This document shows, piece after piece, positions 8,440 through 23,940 of a stretch of 39,285 nt of DNA. Within the stretch, counting starts at the first letter, position 1. Every line of letters starts with the position of its first letter. Location: IMG/VR virus record IMGVR_UViG_3300048930_000281, positions 1 through 39,285 of that record; one strand, 5' to 3'. A program made the position numbers and the translations under genes. Under the pieces are notes generated by a model, which searched no databases, was not told the DNA's origin, and saw only the letters and a program-made list of their open reading frames with translations. Source of the stretch: a virus.

Positions 8440-8754
8440 ATGAAAGCCGTCGCCGAAATCCTCGAACTTCCAACCGCTCAACGCCTGGTGTTTCGATGCC
8501 CTGGGTGCAAATGCTCGCACGGGGTGAACGTAAAGTTGAAGAACCAAGCACAGGGTCCCTTGTGGTCATGGAATGGGTCCTTCGACAGGCCCACGCTCTC
8601 ACCTTCGATCATCGTCACCTATGAGCCCCACCCGCCACCGGACAGGCCGAAAATCTGCCACTCATTCGTGATCGACGGTCAAATCCGGTTCCTCGCTGAT
8701 TGCAAACATAAGTTGGCAGGTCAGACGGTAGACCTTCAACCGATCGACGAGTGA
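8440..8754 (+). CDS. DUF6527-type zinc-binding protein
   Basis: A 104-aa protein that matches the small phage family often mislabelled ammonia monooxygenase and now filed under DUF6527. The pattern is Cys20-x2-Cys23-x-Cys25-x-His27, WNGSFDRPTLSPSI (about residues 44-57), Cys73-His74-SFVIDGQI, and Cys88-x-His90 in LADCKHKLAGQTVDL. The Cys/His set suggests one zinc site. Its function in phages is unknown. It sits inside the tail operon between two tail genes, so a moron-like insertion or a tail-tip accessory role are both possible. It ends in the TGACCTATG junction with the tip gene. Confidence 0.75.
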   Translation: MKAVAEILELPTAQRLVFRCPGCKCSHGVNVKLKNQAQGPLWSWNGSFDRPTLSPSIIVTYEPHPPPDRPKICHSFVIDGQIRFLADCKHKLAGQTVDLQPIDE

Positions 8755-11298: not shown

Positions 11299-11525
11299 GC
11301 TGGTGGCACACAGAATCACGTGAAGACCAAGCCAGGAGAATCCGGCAGCAAGACGACATCCTCGCGGGCTGGGCCGCTCGCCGCGCTGCTGGTGAGACTC
11401 CAAGCCCTCAGCGACGCAATCCACGCCGAAAGGCTGAGAAGGTGGGACGCGGAGTATCCGCCCGGCCACGGGGACCGGGAGGCGCGAAGGCCGAAGCTCA
11501 GCGCAAGTCTAGCGTTGTGAAGTAG
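11295..11525 (+). CDS. Small basic protein after tip gene (frame uncertain)
   Basis: A 76-aa frame coupled to the tip gene by ATGA, beginning MSWWHTESREDQARRIRQQD. The second half is Arg/Lys/Pro-rich and not very protein-like. The +1 frame from GTG 11320 to 11520 encodes a better-looking helix (LLVRLQALSDAIHAERLRRW) in the same DNA, so the true product may be that frame or a frameshifted join of the two. The 3' end runs convergently into the minus-strand membrane gene by about 28 bases. No function can be assigned. Confidence 0.4.
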   Translation: MSWWHTESREDQARRIRQQDDILAGWAARRAAGETPSPQRRNPRRKAEKVGRGVSARPRGPGGAKAEAQRKSSVVK

Positions 11526-11740
11526 CGGGTCGAGTCGTCGACGTCCCGCTCTGTTGTGTGGTGGCCTGTTGGATCTTCAAGGCACCCGCTCGACAGGTAG
11601 TCGATTCGCTCGTTGTGCTGGTTGTAGACGCGGTGAAGTGTCGAGTGAACGTAGCGTTTCGCGGCTGCCAGCCTGGGACCGAGCATGGCGGCGAGTGCGG
11701 CGATGATTGCCGTGGCCGTGAGGAGTTGCAGGAGTTTCAT
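11498..11740 (-). CDS. Small membrane or exported protein (minus-strand block)
   Basis: An 80-aa protein starting MKLLQLLTATAIIAALAAML, an N-terminal transmembrane or signal segment ending near AAA, followed by a polar domain with His/Tyr-rich RYVHSTLHRVYNQHNERIDY. The frame stays open upstream to 11839, but ATG at 11740 overlaps the stop of the zinc-ribbon gene (TGATG-type overlap), so this start is preferred. It is the last gene of the three-gene minus-strand run. The family is not recognised; an envelope role early in infection is possible. Confidence 0.55.
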   Translation of the reverse strand: MKLLQLLTATAIIAALAAMLGPRLAAAKRYVHSTLHRVYNQHNERIDYLSSGCLEDPTGHHTTERDVDDSTRYFTTLDLR

Positions 11741-11907
11741 CGGCACCCCCCGCACCGGCTGAGCGGTCGACGCTCCAGCTCCCGCCCCTGCGCATCGACG
11801 ATGACCCGGATAGCGACAGGCTGACCGCACTCCGAACACTCCCCACGGGCGGCACGTCGGGCTCTGACGGCGGCTTGGCGGGGGGCTGACTTGGGTTTTG
11901 GTTTCAT
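11737..11907 (-). CDS. Zinc-ribbon miniprotein (56 aa)
   Basis: A short minus-strand frame from ATG at 11907 to TGA at 11737-11739. The N-terminus is very basic (MKPKPKSAPRQ and then Arg-rich), followed by ECSECG, a beta-hairpin-like stretch, and CGGCR at the end. The two Cys-x2-Cys pairs, about 25 residues apart, form a plausible zinc ribbon. The stop overlaps the next start, supporting an operon. Such miniproteins are often nucleic-acid binders or host-takeover factors; no target can be named. Confidence 0.6.
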   Translation of the reverse strand: MKPKPKSAPRQAAVRARRAARGECSECGQPVAIRVIVDAQGRELERRPLSRCGGCR

Positions 11908-11946
11908 TGTAGTGCCTTTCGGATTGGTAGATGCGTCGATGGTGGG

Positions 11947-12147
11947 TTACTTGGCGGGACCGATTACCCCACCGCTTCCGATGGTTCCGGCTGTCGGTTT
12001 TGCGACCTGCTTAGCGGTATAAGTTTCGCCGCATCCCGCGCACTGCCAAAACCCGCGAGTGATCATATGGAGGGAGTGATTGCCGGAGTGCGATAGGCCG
12101 CAGCGGGCTGTTGTGGTTTGGGTTTGCTTTGTGGTTTTTGAGTTCAT
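11947..12147 (-). CDS. Zinc-finger-like miniprotein (66 aa)
   Basis: The first gene of the minus-strand run. Its N-terminus is Thr/Gln-rich (MNSKTTKQTQTTT), then CGLSHSGNHSLHMI and FWQCAGCGETY supply one Cys, several His and a Cys-x2-Cys, the usual ligands of a small zinc finger. The tail is Gly-rich. The region upstream of its start (12148-12263) holds an inverted repeat that could be its operator. It is similar in kind to the neighbouring zinc-ribbon gene but not an obvious duplicate of it. Confidence 0.6.
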   Translation of the reverse strand: MNSKTTKQTQTTTARCGLSHSGNHSLHMITRGFWQCAGCGETYTAKQVAKPTAGTIGSGGVIGPAK

Positions 12148-12350
12148 CGGGTTCTCGCTTTCGACGTGCCCAACCTAGCCAACCGCATCCCGTGTGTCAC
12201 TCTTTTTTTGCGTGACTCAACCGATTCATTGCAACCCGTTGTGAATGAGCCTAGAAAAACCGCACCGTGGACCTTGAATCCATCTTCGCGTTCGTGCTGG
12301 TGCTTGCAGCGCTGGGCCTTTACACGGGCCTTCCTTCCACCTTTCGGGCC
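12148..12350. promoter_or_regulatory. Intergenic region upstream of the minus-strand zinc genes, with inverted repeats
   Basis: About 200 bases between the start of the minus-strand zinc gene and the end of the minus-strand RHH gene. I see an imperfect inverted repeat at 12226-12248 (TCATT-g-CAAC-cc-GTTG-tg-AATGA) and GTCAC/GTGAC arms around a T-rich stretch at 12196-12216. Either may be an operator or terminator for the minus-strand transcript. A plus frame starting GTG at 12267 encodes a hydrophobic N-terminus but overlaps the RHH gene antisense, so I did not call it. Confidence 0.4.
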
Positions 12351-12560
12351 TCAAAAATCAGGTTTGGCGATTTGCCTGATCACACCAGAGGCAACCTCCC
12401 GCCGCCTGCGGACATCTTCGTTGCTCTGGTCGCAATAGAACATGATCACTTCTGTTCCAAGCTCCTCCATTGAAAGGCCGACAGCAGCGGCAGCGGCTTT
12501 GATTCCACGTTTCATTTCTGCCGGAACTCGAAGGTTCAGTTGTTCTAATTCGTTAGGCAT
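12351..12560 (-). CDS. Ribbon-helix-helix regulator (minus strand)
   Basis: A 69-aa protein with an Arc/CopG-type ribbon-helix-helix fold: a beta strand (LNLRVPAEMK, about residues 8-17), helix 1 (GIKAAAAAVG), the turn LSMEE and helix 2 (ELGTEVIMFY). Such proteins bind palindromic DNA as dimers of dimers. It is transcribed divergently from another RHH gene at 12649, with only 88 bases between the two starts. That region holds several palindromes, the expected binding sites. It is probably a repressor of itself and of the neighbouring promoter, as Arc and Mnt act in the P22 immI region. Confidence 0.8.
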   Translation of the reverse strand: MPNELEQLNLRVPAEMKRGIKAAAAAVGLSMEELGTEVIMFYCDQSNEDVRRRREVASGVIRQIAKPDF

Positions 12561-12648
12561 GACGCGGTGAAAATGGCTTCATTCCTAGGAATGTCAACCC
12601 TGAGACGTTGACGTGATTTCTAGAATCCTCTAATTCTGAGCGCGTCAC
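12561..12648. promoter_or_regulatory. Divergent control region with palindromic operators
   Basis: Between the two RHH genes lie a perfect palindrome ATTCCTAGGAAT (12581-12592), a GTCAAC/GTTGAC inverted repeat (12593-12612), a near palindrome GATTTCTAGAATC (12615-12627), and outer arms TGACGCG (12560-12566) and CGCGTCA (12641-12647) that place both start codons symmetrically. The two CTAG-centred sites share a TTCnTAGnAA-like core and lie 35 bases apart centre to centre. Divergent promoters must lie here, though I cannot identify clear -35 and -10 boxes. Confidence 0.65.
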
Positions 12649-12912
12649 ATGAGCAACCGACTTCAGTTGAACGTGGAAGTGCCCCGAGCAATTGCCTCGC
12701 GTTTGCGAGCTGACGCGAGGCGATCAGGGCGAAGCCTAAACGACGTGGCTACAACGATCTTTGCCGACTTCCTGAACGGCTGGACAACCGAGGAACGCGG
12801 CAAGTTTTACGCTCAGTTTCAGCCGAAAGGCTCAGGCCGTCCGGTTGGTCGTTCCAAGAAACGCAATGGGGTGAAGACCCCATCCGGAGCGAAAGCCGAG
12901 GTGGTCGCGTGA
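12649..12912 (+). CDS. Ribbon-helix-helix regulator (plus strand)
   Basis: An 87-aa protein. Residues 3-45 form an Arc/CopG-like RHH: strand LQLNVEVPRA, helix 1 (IASRLRADARRSG), turn RSLND, helix 2 (VATTIFADFLNGW). The basic C-terminal tail (SKKRNGVKTPSGAK) may add DNA contacts. It heads the plus-strand early operon and faces the minus-strand RHH gene. Its ATG lies inside the outer inverted repeat of the shared control region, so either protein could block its translation or transcription. The stop overlaps the next GTG start. Confidence 0.8.
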   Translation: MSNRLQLNVEVPRAIASRLRADARRSGRSLNDVATTIFADFLNGWTTEERGKFYAQFQPKGSGRPVGRSKKRNGVKTPSGAKAEVVA

Positions 12913-13094
12913 ACCTCCTCCCCATCGTCTACATCATCCGCGCGCTCTGCAAATGGCGGCGCATCCGGATCCACTCCTGGCTCGCACCCCGCGAGCGGCT
13001 CGCCTGGCGATTGGCAGTCCTGGGCAAGATTTCGTTTAACCGTTCCGACAGGCTTTTTCGCTGCATGCAGCGAGTACGGAAGGGGGACGCATGA
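12909..13094 (+). CDS. Small basic protein
   Basis: A 61-aa protein from GTG 12909, coupled to both neighbours by stop/start overlaps. It starts with a hydrophobic stretch (LLPIVYIIRALC) followed by an Arg/Trp-rich, cationic sequence (KWRRIRIHSW, RERLAWRLAVLG). It could be peripherally membrane-bound. No known family. Gene coupling is the main reason to accept it. Confidence 0.5.
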   Translation: MNLLPIVYIIRALCKWRRIRIHSWLAPRERLAWRLAVLGKISFNRSDRLFRCMQRVRKGDA

Positions 13095-13462
13095 GTGAGG
13101 TGATTATCACTCTGGGATTTGCGCTTGTCGGTTTCGGCGTTCTATCCGCCCTCGCCACTGCGTCCCGTCGCTCGGAGCAGTGGCTCGCAGCGGAGGACGA
13201 CGACGGCATCCGTGGCGCATGGTGGCGCCAGTCAGCTTCCTCGGCCCCGCCCAGCTTCGACGGCGGCGCGTTCATGGGTTCCGCGCATGGTGGGGCCGAG
13301 GTTCATTTCGATAGCGTCGGTTCTCGCACATACGTGACCCAACAGGGCGTTGTGCTGGAGGCCGAAATCGTCGGGCCGAACCTACTCCGGATCGTTGGTC
13401 CGATCACATCTCCCAAGGGCACCCAGCCGACACCTAGCAACCCATCCGCATCCCATGCCTGA
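13091..13462 (+). CDS. Single-pass membrane protein
   Basis: A 123-aa protein with an N-terminal transmembrane helix (about residues 4-24, VIITLGFALVGFGVLSALAT), an acidic-to-Ser/Gly-rich middle and a beta-rich end (VTQQGVVLEAEIVGPNLLRIVG). It is encoded in the early operon straight after two small genes, coupled by ATGA, with a purine-rich GGAAGGGGG before the start that may act as a Shine-Dalgarno sequence. Membrane proteins expressed early are often superinfection-exclusion or host-modifying factors, but nothing in the sequence proves that here. Confidence 0.55.
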   Translation: MSEVIITLGFALVGFGVLSALATASRRSEQWLAAEDDDGIRGAWWRQSASSAPPSFDGGAFMGSAHGGAEVHFDSVGSRTYVTQQGVVLEAEIVGPNLLRIVGPITSPKGTQPTPSNPSASHA

Positions 13463-13577
13463 TGGACAAATAGGCGGGGCTTCTTTTCTCACTCACTCAA
13501 AACCCATGCCTTCCTACAGCACCCGAACCGGCGCCGGCTGGTTCATGCGGAGGGCGCTTCATCACTCGAAAAACCCA

Positions 13578-14522
13578 ATGAACACAGCACCAACCACACC
13601 AACGAACGCCATAAGTATCGCAGAAATCATCGCCAAGTCACCGGACCCGGTGAAGGCCATCGCCGACCTCGGCGCCATGCTCGGCAAATCCCAGATGCTC
13701 GGACCCGTCGACCGGGTAGAGATCGGACAGGTTGCCGTGATGGTCTGCGCGACCACCGGCATGAGCATTGCCGACTTGCTCCGCACCTATTCCATCCAGT
13801 TCGGGAAGCTCGTCAAACTGAACGACGCAGCGGTGGCTGAGTTCCGAAAGGCCGGTGGCGTCATCAAATGGTCGGAGGACGGCAGCGACGGCAAATCCGC
13901 CCGCGCTGTTTTCACTCTCGGCGAGGACTCCGCGGAAGCCTCCTGCACCGTCGAGAAGGCTGCGAAGGCGGGGTGGACACGAAACACCAAGTGGGCCACT
14001 GAACCGACCTCCATGCTCCGCGCCCGGGTGACGAAGGACGGGATCCGCCGCATCGCCCCGTGGATTTTCGCTGGAGAGTACGACGAAGACAGCGTGCCCG
14101 ATGTCGCGATTGACCCGGCCACCGCTGCCGCATCCGCCGCCCGCACTGCTGCTGCACCGACCCCGGCCCCGGCTCGCGGAATGGATTTCGGAGCCATGTC
14201 CAAGGCGTTGGAAGAAGACAGGGCGGCGAAGGCGAGAGTTGCGGAAGCATCGAAACCGACTCCGGCACCAGCGACCACGCCGGCACCTGCACCGGCACCG
14301 GCTGCGGCAACGCTCTCGCACGAAGTCCAAGGGCAACTCGTCGCGATGCTCGGCGAGGCCAACCTCCCACACGCTCAGGCGTGGCTCATCTCAGTGGGTT
14401 GGCTGAAGGCCGGCCAGTCCATGGAGGAACTGCCTGAGAAGCACGCCCGCGCCATGCTCGCGAAACCTGACGCTGTGAAGGCTAAGCTCGCCGAGTTCAT
14501 AGCGAAAGGCGGCGCGAAGTGA
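13578..14522 (+). CDS. RecT-like single-strand annealing protein
   Basis: A 314-aa protein. Residues 20-170 resemble RecT/Redbeta-family annealing proteins: a helical start, GMSIADLLRTYSIQFGK (about 61-77), the beta-rich core IKWSEDGSDGKSARAVFTL, and the hallmark order W...EPTSMLRARV...IRRIAPWIFAGEYDE (about 139-170). An Ala/Pro-rich linker (about 181-260) follows, then a separate C-terminal helical domain (about 262-312). It would anneal complementary single strands during recombination-dependent replication, with the nuclease encoded three genes on. ATG 13578 has an AAAAACCCA leader; in-frame ATG 13506 is an alternative. Confidence 0.7.
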   Translation: MNTAPTTPTNAISIAEIIAKSPDPVKAIADLGAMLGKSQMLGPVDRVEIGQVAVMVCATTGMSIADLLRTYSIQFGKLVKLNDAAVAEFRKAGGVIKWSEDGSDGKSARAVFTLGEDSAEASCTVEKAAKAGWTRNTKWATEPTSMLRARVTKDGIRRIAPWIFAGEYDEDSVPDVAIDPATAAASAARTAAAPTPAPARGMDFGAMSKALEEDRAAKARVAEASKPTPAPATTPAPAPAPAAATLSHEVQGQLVAMLGEANLPHAQAWLISVGWLKAGQSMEELPEKHARAMLAKPDAVKAKLAEFIAKGGAK

Positions 14523-18702: not shown

Positions 18703-18905
18703 AAAAACCGTATTACCAATTCATGCCTCCAGAGCTTCCAAGGCTTGAATCTGATGTTGTCAGGCTCAGGTTGCAAAACAACCCAAACAGAGAGCCTGTT
18801 GGTCCTCACACGGGAAGGTGCGAGCATTGCGGAAGCGATAACCTTTGGGACGACAACCTGGCTTACGGCTGCAACTCATGCGGTGCGTTGCTTGGAAGCA
18901 ATTAA
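18699..18905 (+). CDS. Zinc-ribbon protein
   Basis: A 68-aa protein from GTG 18699, overlapping the ASCH stop. The C-terminal half carries GRCEHCGSDNLW and GCNSCGALL, two Cys-x2-Cys pairs about 17 residues apart, a classic zinc ribbon. The N-terminal half is Pro/Arg-rich. It probably binds nucleic acid or acts as a small adaptor. It is the last intact gene before the scarred stretch ahead of the helicase. Confidence 0.65.
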   Translation: MKKPYYQFMPPELPRLESDVVRLRLQNNPNREPVGPHTGRCEHCGSDNLWDDNLAYGCNSCGALLGSN

Positions 18906-18910
18906 GCTCC

Positions 18911-18960
18911 CGTGAACCTCCGCCCATACCAGCAAGAAACCGTGCGCGCCGTCGTCAAGG
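18911..18960 (+). repeat. 50-bp direct repeat, truncated copy of helicase 5' end
   Basis: Identical to 19255-19304, the first 50 bases of the helicase gene including its GTG start. Beyond base 18960 the similarity stops. The frame carries on for ten more codons to TGA at 18990-18992, giving a 26-residue peptide whose first 16 residues match the helicase. The copies are 344 bases apart. Confidence 0.9.
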
Positions 18961-18992
18961 ACACCGAAGCCAGTAACCCGCTTAGCGACTGA
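18912..18992 (+). pseudogene. Truncated helicase N-terminus (26 codons)
   Basis: GTG 18912 begins a frame identical to the helicase for 16 residues (MNLRPYQQETVRAVVK), then DTEASNPLSD and TGA. It lacks Walker A and all other motifs, so it cannot be active. It is either a recombination scar or, less likely, a decoy peptide or leader. Confidence 0.6.
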
Positions 18993-18993
18993 C

Positions 18994-19163
18994 ATGGAAA
19001 CCACCCCCACCATACCGAGAGCCTTCAAGTTTGGTGATGAAGTGACTTGGACGCACTGCCTGCAAAAGGCCGTTCCATACAATTCACAATGCGAACCGGA
19101 AAAATCGTCAAGCTAGGCAAAAACTCGGCTCTCTGTAAGCGGTACAGAGTTGCGCCGGAGTGA
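18994..19163 (+). pseudogene. Small protein gene split by a frameshift
   Basis: From ATG 18994 the frame encodes METTPTIPRAFKFGDEVTW and then derails to a TAG. The -1 frame continues as RSIQFTMRTGKIVKLGKNSA and VAPE to TGA 19161-19163. Together they look like one ~55-residue protein of the kind that begins FKFGDEVTW and ends with a basic GKIVKLG segment, broken near 19063-19070 (CAAAAGG). No canonical slippery heptamer is present, so an indel is more likely than programmed frameshifting. Confidence 0.5.
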
Positions 19164-19254: not shown

Positions 19255-19304
19255 CGTGAACCTCCGCCCATACCAGCAAGAAACCGTGCGCGCCGTCGTC
19301 AAGG
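19255..19304 (+). repeat. 50-bp direct repeat, parent copy in helicase gene
   Basis: The full-length locus of the repeat also found at 18911-18960. It covers the base before the GTG start and the first 16 codons of the helicase. Confidence 0.9.
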
Positions 19305-23715: not shown

Positions 23716-23858
23716 TGAAATCACCTAAAACAGCAAGTGTCCCAAGTGTCCCAAGTGTCCCAGCGCCACCCCTGTCCCAACTACCTGGGACACTACTTGC
23801 CGGGTGTCCCAGCACCCCTGTCCCAACACCCTCCCCCCTTAAGGGGGGGAGAGGGTAG
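23715..23858 (+). other. Short open frame over the iteron array (doubtful gene)
   Basis: A 47-codon frame coupled to the primase-helicase stop (TAATG), encoding SVPSVPSVP-type low-complexity sequence because it reads through the GTGTCCCA repeats, and ending TAG. The composition is dictated by the repeats; I regard it as a likely by-product of the array rather than a protein gene. Confidence 0.25.
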
Positions 23859-23940
23859 TTGTTGGGACACTGGGTCCCGCTGAGACACGGCCGGCATCCC
23901 CTTACCCCTTGGAATGAAAAATCCTGGGACACTTGGGACA
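23738..23940. repeat. Array of TGTCCCA iterons
   Basis: Ten copies of TGTCCCA or its complement lie in 203 bases. Direct copies start at 23738, 23747, 23756, 23773, 23805 and 23819; inverted copies (TGGGACA) at 23786, 23863, 23925 and 23934. The first three form a perfect 9-bp tandem (AAGTGTCCC), and the last two lie 9 bases apart in the opposite orientation. Between them is the long hairpin at 23819-23869. Such arrays directly after a replication protein gene are typical of origins; a partition or regulator-binding site is the alternative. Confidence 0.75.
23819..23869. other. Large inverted repeat centred on CCCCCCTTAAGGGGGG
   Basis: The outer arms TGTCCCAACA (23819-23828) and TGTTGGGACA (23860-23869) are exact complements and each contain one iteron. 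The inner part has the perfect 16-base palindrome CCCCCCTTAAGGGGGG (23833-23848) with CCCTC and GAGAGGG flanks. It could extrude as a cruciform or fold in RNA. It is followed by little T, so it is not a standard terminator. The rest of the gap, 23941-24033, holds no feature I recognise beyond the leader of the next gene. Confidence 0.75.

Follow-up and report, generated by a model that had tools for sequence, protein, structure and literature searches.

Two small genes that face away from each other at positions 12351-12912 of the window (the whole 39,285-bp stretch of viral DNA that was analysed) are best read from their sequences as an Arc/Mnt-like divergent pair of ribbon-helix-helix (RHH) regulators, whose members are homologous to each other and would control an early operon. 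We favour, with some reserve, a model in which two homologous Arc-type RHH repressors, here called P1 and P2, run a divergent promoter-operator module. The genes in this part of the map are as follows.

11498-11740, minus strand: ORF of 80 aa, last of the leftward operon, good coding score
11737-11907, minus strand: ORF of 56 aa, zinc-finger-like (zf_C2H2_13, E 0.0043), negative coding score
11947-12147, minus strand: ORF of 66 aa, zinc-ribbon-like by eye (Cys/His pairs), Pfam match at E 0.18 only
12351-12560, minus strand: P1, putative RHH protein of 69 aa, ribbon QLNLRVP, G-X-S turn GLS
12649-12912, plus strand: P2, putative RHH protein of 87 aa, ribbon QLNVEVP, G-X-S turn GRS
12909-13094, plus strand: ORF of 61 aa that overlaps P2 by 4 bp and begins the rightward operon
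13091-13462, plus strand: ORF of 123 aa in the rightward operon
13578-14522, plus strand: RecT-like annealing protein, possible alternative start at 13455, the anchor for comparing relatives

The virus record carries a direct terminal repeat of 127 bp, which indicates that the map is complete and in effect circular. Family scans identified head and tail genes, a RecT-like protein, exonucleases, a helicase, a primase, a resolvase and a terminase. Of 19 relatives of the exonuclease found in bacterial genome contigs, 17 belong to Verrucomicrobiota, and from this we infer that the host probably belongs to the same group. No match was found for the terminase query in viral_contigs or for the DNA of 11500-13500 among phage records, and no RNA family was found in the 39,285-bp window.

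A preliminary description of this DNA had proposed a divergent pair, and the ORFs for proteins of 69 aa (minus strand) and 87 aa (plus strand) were confirmed, with start codons 88 bp apart. It had also placed the pair at the only strand switch in the genome. Minus-strand gene calls are confined to 11498-12560, with the exception of a weak one at 18876-19013 (scoring 5.4), so 12560/12649 is indeed the sole divergent junction, but a convergent junction also exists near 11500. The leftward operon comprises four genes, P1 and three further small ORFs of which two are zinc-ribbon-like, and the ORF at 11737-11907 overlaps the next leftward gene through ATGA. That last gene (11498-11740) has no match in the family scans; by eye, its N-terminus resembles a pseudopilin signal. 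On the other side, the proposed rightward transcript carries recT, exonuclease, helicase and primase genes, and the two ORFs that follow P2 (12909-13094 and 13091-13462) have no Pfam or PHROG match, hence no antirepressor of a known family is seen there. Approximately 200 bp without a called gene (12155-12350) separate P1 from the ORF that follows it leftward; they hold two more CTAGs (12175 and 12251) and an inverted GTCAC...GTGAC and are possibly a second control site.

The assignment of both proteins to the RHH fold in the preliminary description is supported by sub-threshold Pfam and PHROG matches, by the helix positions in structural models and, for P2, by structure matches to Arc. All of the Pfam and PHROG RHH matches fall under the curated cut-offs, the best Pfam scores for the two proteins being 15.2 and 17.1 bits where the cut-off stands at 27. 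In AlphaFold monomer models, which are of low confidence (mean pLDDT 67 and 58), P1 has helices at residues 14-27 and 31-46 and P2 at residues 13-26 and 30-43, in each case preceded by an extended N-terminal stretch; structure prediction thus places two helices where the RHH fold needs them, with the beta-strand of the fold not formed in the monomers. P2 has in addition a third helix and a disordered basic tail. As judged from these models, we have moderate confidence that both proteins follow the beta-strand, helix, helix pattern within approximately 45 residues. In Foldseek searches the seven highest-ranking solved structures for P2 are all Arc, and the best for P1 include StnY, VapB, Arc and CopG, all at E > 0.3.

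RHH proteins have a conserved G-X-S/T/N turn between the helices (PMC2812701, in excerpt), and a G-X-S turn is present in P1 (GLS), in P2 (GRS) and in a P2 homologue from the relative L232 (GAS). In Arc, Gln9, Asn11 and Arg13 contact a TAGA box (PMC12645479, in the portion available); at these positions P1 reads Gln-Leu-Asn-Leu-Arg, and so keeps the Gln-x-Asn-x-Arg of Arc, and P2 reads Gln-Leu-Asn-Val-Glu. When each protein was left out of the profile in turn, it was recovered with an E-value of 0.01 for P1, 7.3 for P2 and 630 for the homologue in L232. Sequence and predicted fold are concordant and point, weakly, to both being RHH proteins. The best phmmer match of P2 to Arc has E 0.35, and P1 gave none to Arc or Mnt up to E 10; the two proteins do not appear to be sequence orthologues of Arc or Mnt, and the modelled likeness lies at the level of fold only.

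The preliminary description had regarded P1 and P2 as two different RHH proteins. This view has to be revised, as their local alignment score was reached by 0 of 5000 shuffles and BLASTP aligns them with 30% identity across 44 aa; the two are probably homologous to each other. Their close kin are elusive: none was found in viral_contigs, tblastn gave no phage record at E <= 1, phmmer gave nothing at E <= 1 among the ORFs of related viruses, and P1 had no match at E <= 10 in 20 related records.

The 88 bp between the two start codons, with the outer arms, contain the following elements, in which the roles of operator and promoter are predicted.

12561-12648, no strand: divergent control region common to P1 and P2, 88 bp
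12560-12574, no strand: left outer arm (core TGACGCG), which extends into the P1 start codon
12580-12593, no strand: candidate operator O1, CATTCCTAGGAATG, a perfect palindrome of 14 bp within the -35/-10 spacer proposed for P1
12592-12597 and 12570-12575, minus strand: proposed P1 promoter, -35 TTGACA and weak -10 CATTTT, spacing 16
12608-12613 and 12632-12637, plus strand: proposed P2 promoter, -35 TTGACG and weak -10 AATTCT, spacing 18
12616-12627, no strand: candidate operator O2, ATTTCTAGAATC, within the -35/-10 spacer proposed for P2
12633-12647, no strand: right outer arm (core CGCGTCA), separated by one base from the P2 start codon

Three central palindromes had been described in this region, and all three are present. 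The middle one, GTCAAC-N8-GTTGAC at 12593-12612, is less favoured as an operator and is better explained as a pair of -35 boxes placed back to back, because the order of TTGACG followed by CTAG also precedes the P2 homologue in L232. It can be seen that the minus strand reads TTGACA (12597-12592) and then TTCCTAGGAATG, that the plus strand reads TTGACG (12608-12613) and then TGATTTCTAGAATC, and that the two -35 boxes stand 10 bp apart. The proposed -10 boxes are weak, with 3 of 6 matches each, and a strict promoter scan reported no promoter in the 88 bp. If these boxes are right, both mRNAs would be nearly leaderless, beginning only a few bases from the start codon; a word resembling a Shine-Dalgarno sequence stands before 17 of 51 genes and before neither P1 nor P2.

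The flanking palindromes appear to be copies of one candidate operator motif, ATTYCTAGRAWY, with one copy in each -35/-10 spacer. O2 as a whole is imperfect, its perfect part being TTCTAGAA (12618-12625). The only exact matches to ATTYCTAGRAWY in the window are at 12581 and 12616, the two sites from which the pattern was derived; with two mismatches allowed, its 14 matches against 12.2 expected are no commoner than chance. The shared core is itself uncommon, as 39,158 bp contain 25 CTAGs where base composition predicts approximately 136 (about fivefold rarer), and at the observed genome rate 0.06 would be expected, by arithmetic, in the 88 bp that hold two. In dinucleotide shuffles of the 88 bp, a perfect 14-bp palindrome arose in 6 of 2000, GTCAA-N6..20-TTGAC likewise in 6 of 2000, and the summed palindrome score was attained by 11 of 2000. 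Across the genome, 21 of 3552 windows of 88 bp have an equal or higher palindrome score. Word-repeat counts in the region do not exceed those of shuffles (7-mers, 272/1000). No single element of the region is unique; the combination and its place are.

A search of 20 related records with P2 gave one match, in the record of L004 (L232, 8586-8786, 66 aa; E 5.8e-4). This protein aligns with P2 without gaps over 54 aa, including a KFY motif near the end, at a score reached by 0 of 5000 shuffles, although BLASTP alone found nothing; a search for relatives of the homologue itself matched its own record only. Upstream of it stands TTGACG-17-TATCTT, with the CTAG palindromes TTGCTAGCAA, CGCTAGCC and TGCTAGCA in and around the promoter spacer and a minus-strand ORF beyond them. 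Four CTAGs fall in the 87 bp at 8479-8565, out of 20 in the 25,471 bp of that record examined. The motif TTNCTAGNAA occurs without mismatch once in the window and once in L232, both times in the control region, and not in L004; it was composed after both sites were known, so that this agreement is a matter of consistency and not a blind test. These observations suggest that L232 is an independent case of the P2-type arrangement, with TTGACG and CTAG palindromes at the spacer.

In the mechanism we propose, P1 and P2 would each head their own transcript, leftward and rightward, from back-to-back promoters that each carry one CTAG-centred operator copy in the -35/-10 spacer. RHH dimers bound to the operators would exclude RNA polymerase, and each protein would repress both its own promoter and the opposite one, the outcome being decided by the relative amounts and affinities of the two. 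The recombination/replication operon and the four-gene leftward operon would then stand against each other under mutual and self-repression, in the manner of immI with a shared operator. P1 and P2 probably read the same CTAG operators. The purpose of such a switch could be early timing, or immunity if the phage is temperate.

Well-studied phage switches mostly use helix-turn-helix repressors. The CI and Cro proteins of lambda have operators in common; P1 and P2 resemble them as two homologous divergent repressors, with operator sharing here a hypothesis, and differ in being of the RHH type and in that no integrase was found. The immI region of P22 is a second immunity region that controls the antirepressor alongside the main repressor (immC), and the Arc operator sits in the ant promoter, between its -35 and -10 boxes. 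To our knowledge RHH pairs are known mainly from this accessory region, as far as the available text of PMC11016777 and PMC8022706 goes. Mnt represses arc and ant, and Arc represses mnt and moderates ant (PMC11016777, in excerpt). The resemblance to immI noted in the preliminary description holds for layout, in that two adjoining RHH genes diverge from one control region, with divergent transcription here read from that layout. The TCTAGA at O2, which contains TAGA on both strands, adds a likeness to Arc. In contrast to immI, neither an antirepressor nor a main repressor was found here, the rightward RHH gene heads a recombination/replication operon, and a similar operator appears to lie in both promoters.

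The pair had been suggested to be the entire decision circuit of the phage. A six-frame search of the window gave no match to the integrase family PF00589, which was detected in every one of 14 control genomes; the family was found in 5 of 24 records tested (3 above the cut-off), the window being one of the 24. PHROG and Pfam scans of the window ORFs detected no integrase, partition protein or helix-turn-helix repressor, and phrog_4 had no match, so that the lack of a CI or Cro gene, also part of that description, is upheld by the family scans. Without an integrase, partition or CI-like gene, the suggestion of a decision circuit loses its support, and the phage may not face a choice about lysogeny at all; the P1/P2 switch may instead time early genes in lytic growth. 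We give slightly less than even weight to the specific form of this idea, that the phage is obligately virulent and lacks lysogeny, with P2 as an early autorepressor of its own operon and P1 shutting off the leftward genes later. This would change the purpose of the switch and leave its mechanism the same. Against it stand the genes found at this position, upstream of recT, in some kin. In L085, which is syntenic and has a tail gene and recT in common with the window, the slot between the tail genes and recT holds an ORF resembling an integrase (PF00589, a sub-threshold match at E 1.5e-4) together with an HTH_17 ORF, and the Akkermansia contig L244, a distant relative, has a CI-like repressor there; both point to a slot for lysogeny functions.

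This slot was compared across 34 records, the window included, that had a recT match and at least 1 kb upstream of it, with the same or near-identical contigs merged by hand. At least one RHH-like ORF lies within 3 kb upstream of recT in 11 of the 34 (the window, L002, L003, L088, L090, L093, L094, L096, L101, L155 and L156), the calls being made partly by eye and partly with a profile seeded from those calls. On leaving each out, L155 and L096 were lost and L002 and L232 were recovered only at E > 600. Family support is above the cut-off for L003 (HicB) and absent in Pfam for L002 and L088, and the L090 ORF was called without a family scan. No RHH ORF was found upstream of recT in L083, L085, L095, L151, L157, L159 or L160. 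An RHH-like candidate ORF of L084 (3927-4142) was dropped as it matched no RHH family. Two further records stand outside the count: L099 has an RHH-like ORF and no recT match, and L004 has its RHH gene and recT at opposite contig ends, their adjacency being a reading from the two ends of a record in which no end repeat was found for circular joining.

The arrangement recurs in L101, where two divergent RHH ORFs 52 bp apart lie upstream of recT with the inverted repeat GTATAGC-N5-GCTATAC between them. As with P1 and P2, the members are related to each other (0 of 5000 shuffles), whereas the operator sequence differs; the score of P1 against the minus-strand L101 protein was reached by 46 of 5000 shuffles and that of P2 against the plus-strand protein by 967 of 5000, which amounts to no convincing pairwise similarity. 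In three other records GTAAAGA stands three times before the RHH gene (L093, 7310-7457; L156, 2109-2207; L090, 7360-7506) and is a candidate operator of another RHH family. In a 7-mer repeat test this was significant for L156 (1/1000) and borderline for L090 (27/1000) and L093 (78/1000); L101 (119/1000), L088 (609), L232 (516) and L003 (1000) were not significant. The same three GTAAAGA records have zinc-finger-like ORFs on the other strand (a weak Pfam match in L093, by eye in L090 and L156). The presence of RHH, integrase/HTH or CI-like genes in the slot suggests that RHH genes are one of several interchangeable control modules.

Tentatively, these findings can be taken further, to a phage switch made of RHH proteins alone, in which a homologous Arc-type pair competes for the same two CTAG operators in back-to-back promoters and occupies the slot that holds integrase/HTH or CI genes in kin, and to a slot taken over by RHH genes more than once. 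On this reading, unlike RHH regulators would have entered it repeatedly in viruses of Verrucomicrobiota, with divergent pairs in two lineages and an operator peculiar to each lineage (CTAG, GTATAGC, GTAAAGA). A literature search, which missed most subscription papers, found no RHH-only phage switch, and on RHH phage repressors in Verrucomicrobia it found nothing beyond toxin-antitoxin systems of a Chlamydia relative. Were the RHH pair alone to control the early operon, the switch would be very small, at approximately 560 bp in all; it would also imply a simple recognition code, with Gln-Asn-Arg or Gln-Asn-Glu reading a CTAG core, and offer a handle on gene control in Verrucomicrobiota phages.

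It is rather unlikely, in our judgement, that P1 and P2 use separate operators, one binding the CTAG palindromes and the other the outer arms (TGACGCG/CGCGTCA), which lie where transcription would start; the switch would still work, without competition for the same sites. Arc and Mnt of P22 do have separate operators, the outer arms are complementary at 12 of 15 positions (reached in 1 of 300 shuffles), and the third ribbon contact differs, being Arg in P1 and Glu in P2. However, TGACGCG/CGCGTCA occurs 10 times in the window, and the L232 homologue of P2, which lies near CTAG, has Gln-Asn-Arg in its ribbon as P1 does, fitting one common code. Of the overlap of these arms with both start codons, as originally described, the left (12560-12566) holds by one base and the right (12641-12647) does not.

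Improbable, too, is the idea that the palindromes are due to chance or structure and that the RHH proteins have their site of action elsewhere, such as a replication origin, or serve in partition. Perfect 14-bp palindromes are not rare (eight genome-wide), some RHH proteins are partition factors, and P1 matches phrog_795 ('partition protein ATPase', E 0.001), but the recurrence of CTAG palindromes with TTGACG beside the P2 homologue speaks against this idea.

Antitoxins such as FitA, VapB and RelB share the small fold and operator autorepression (shown for RelB in PMC2812701, in excerpt, and proposed here for P1 and P2). It is nevertheless very unlikely that P1 or P2 is an autorepressing antitoxin with a neighbouring small ORF as toxin: P2 has the FitA-like antitoxin RHH as its best Pfam family (E 0.0052), a disordered basic tail and a 4-bp overlap with the next ORF, but searches of Pfam, PHROGs and PADLOC gave no toxin match for the adjoining ORFs, and two antitoxin genes set back to back would be unusual.

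Elsewhere in the genome, TGTCCCAA/GTGTCCCAG recurs densely at 23738-23940, in direct and inverted orientation between the primase and the next gene; these copies form the strongest palindrome cluster and may be replication-origin iterons. A perfect 50-bp direct repeat was also noted (18911-18960 and 19255-19304), the second copy of which begins at the helicase start codon, so that the start of the helicase gene seems to be duplicated 344 bp upstream.
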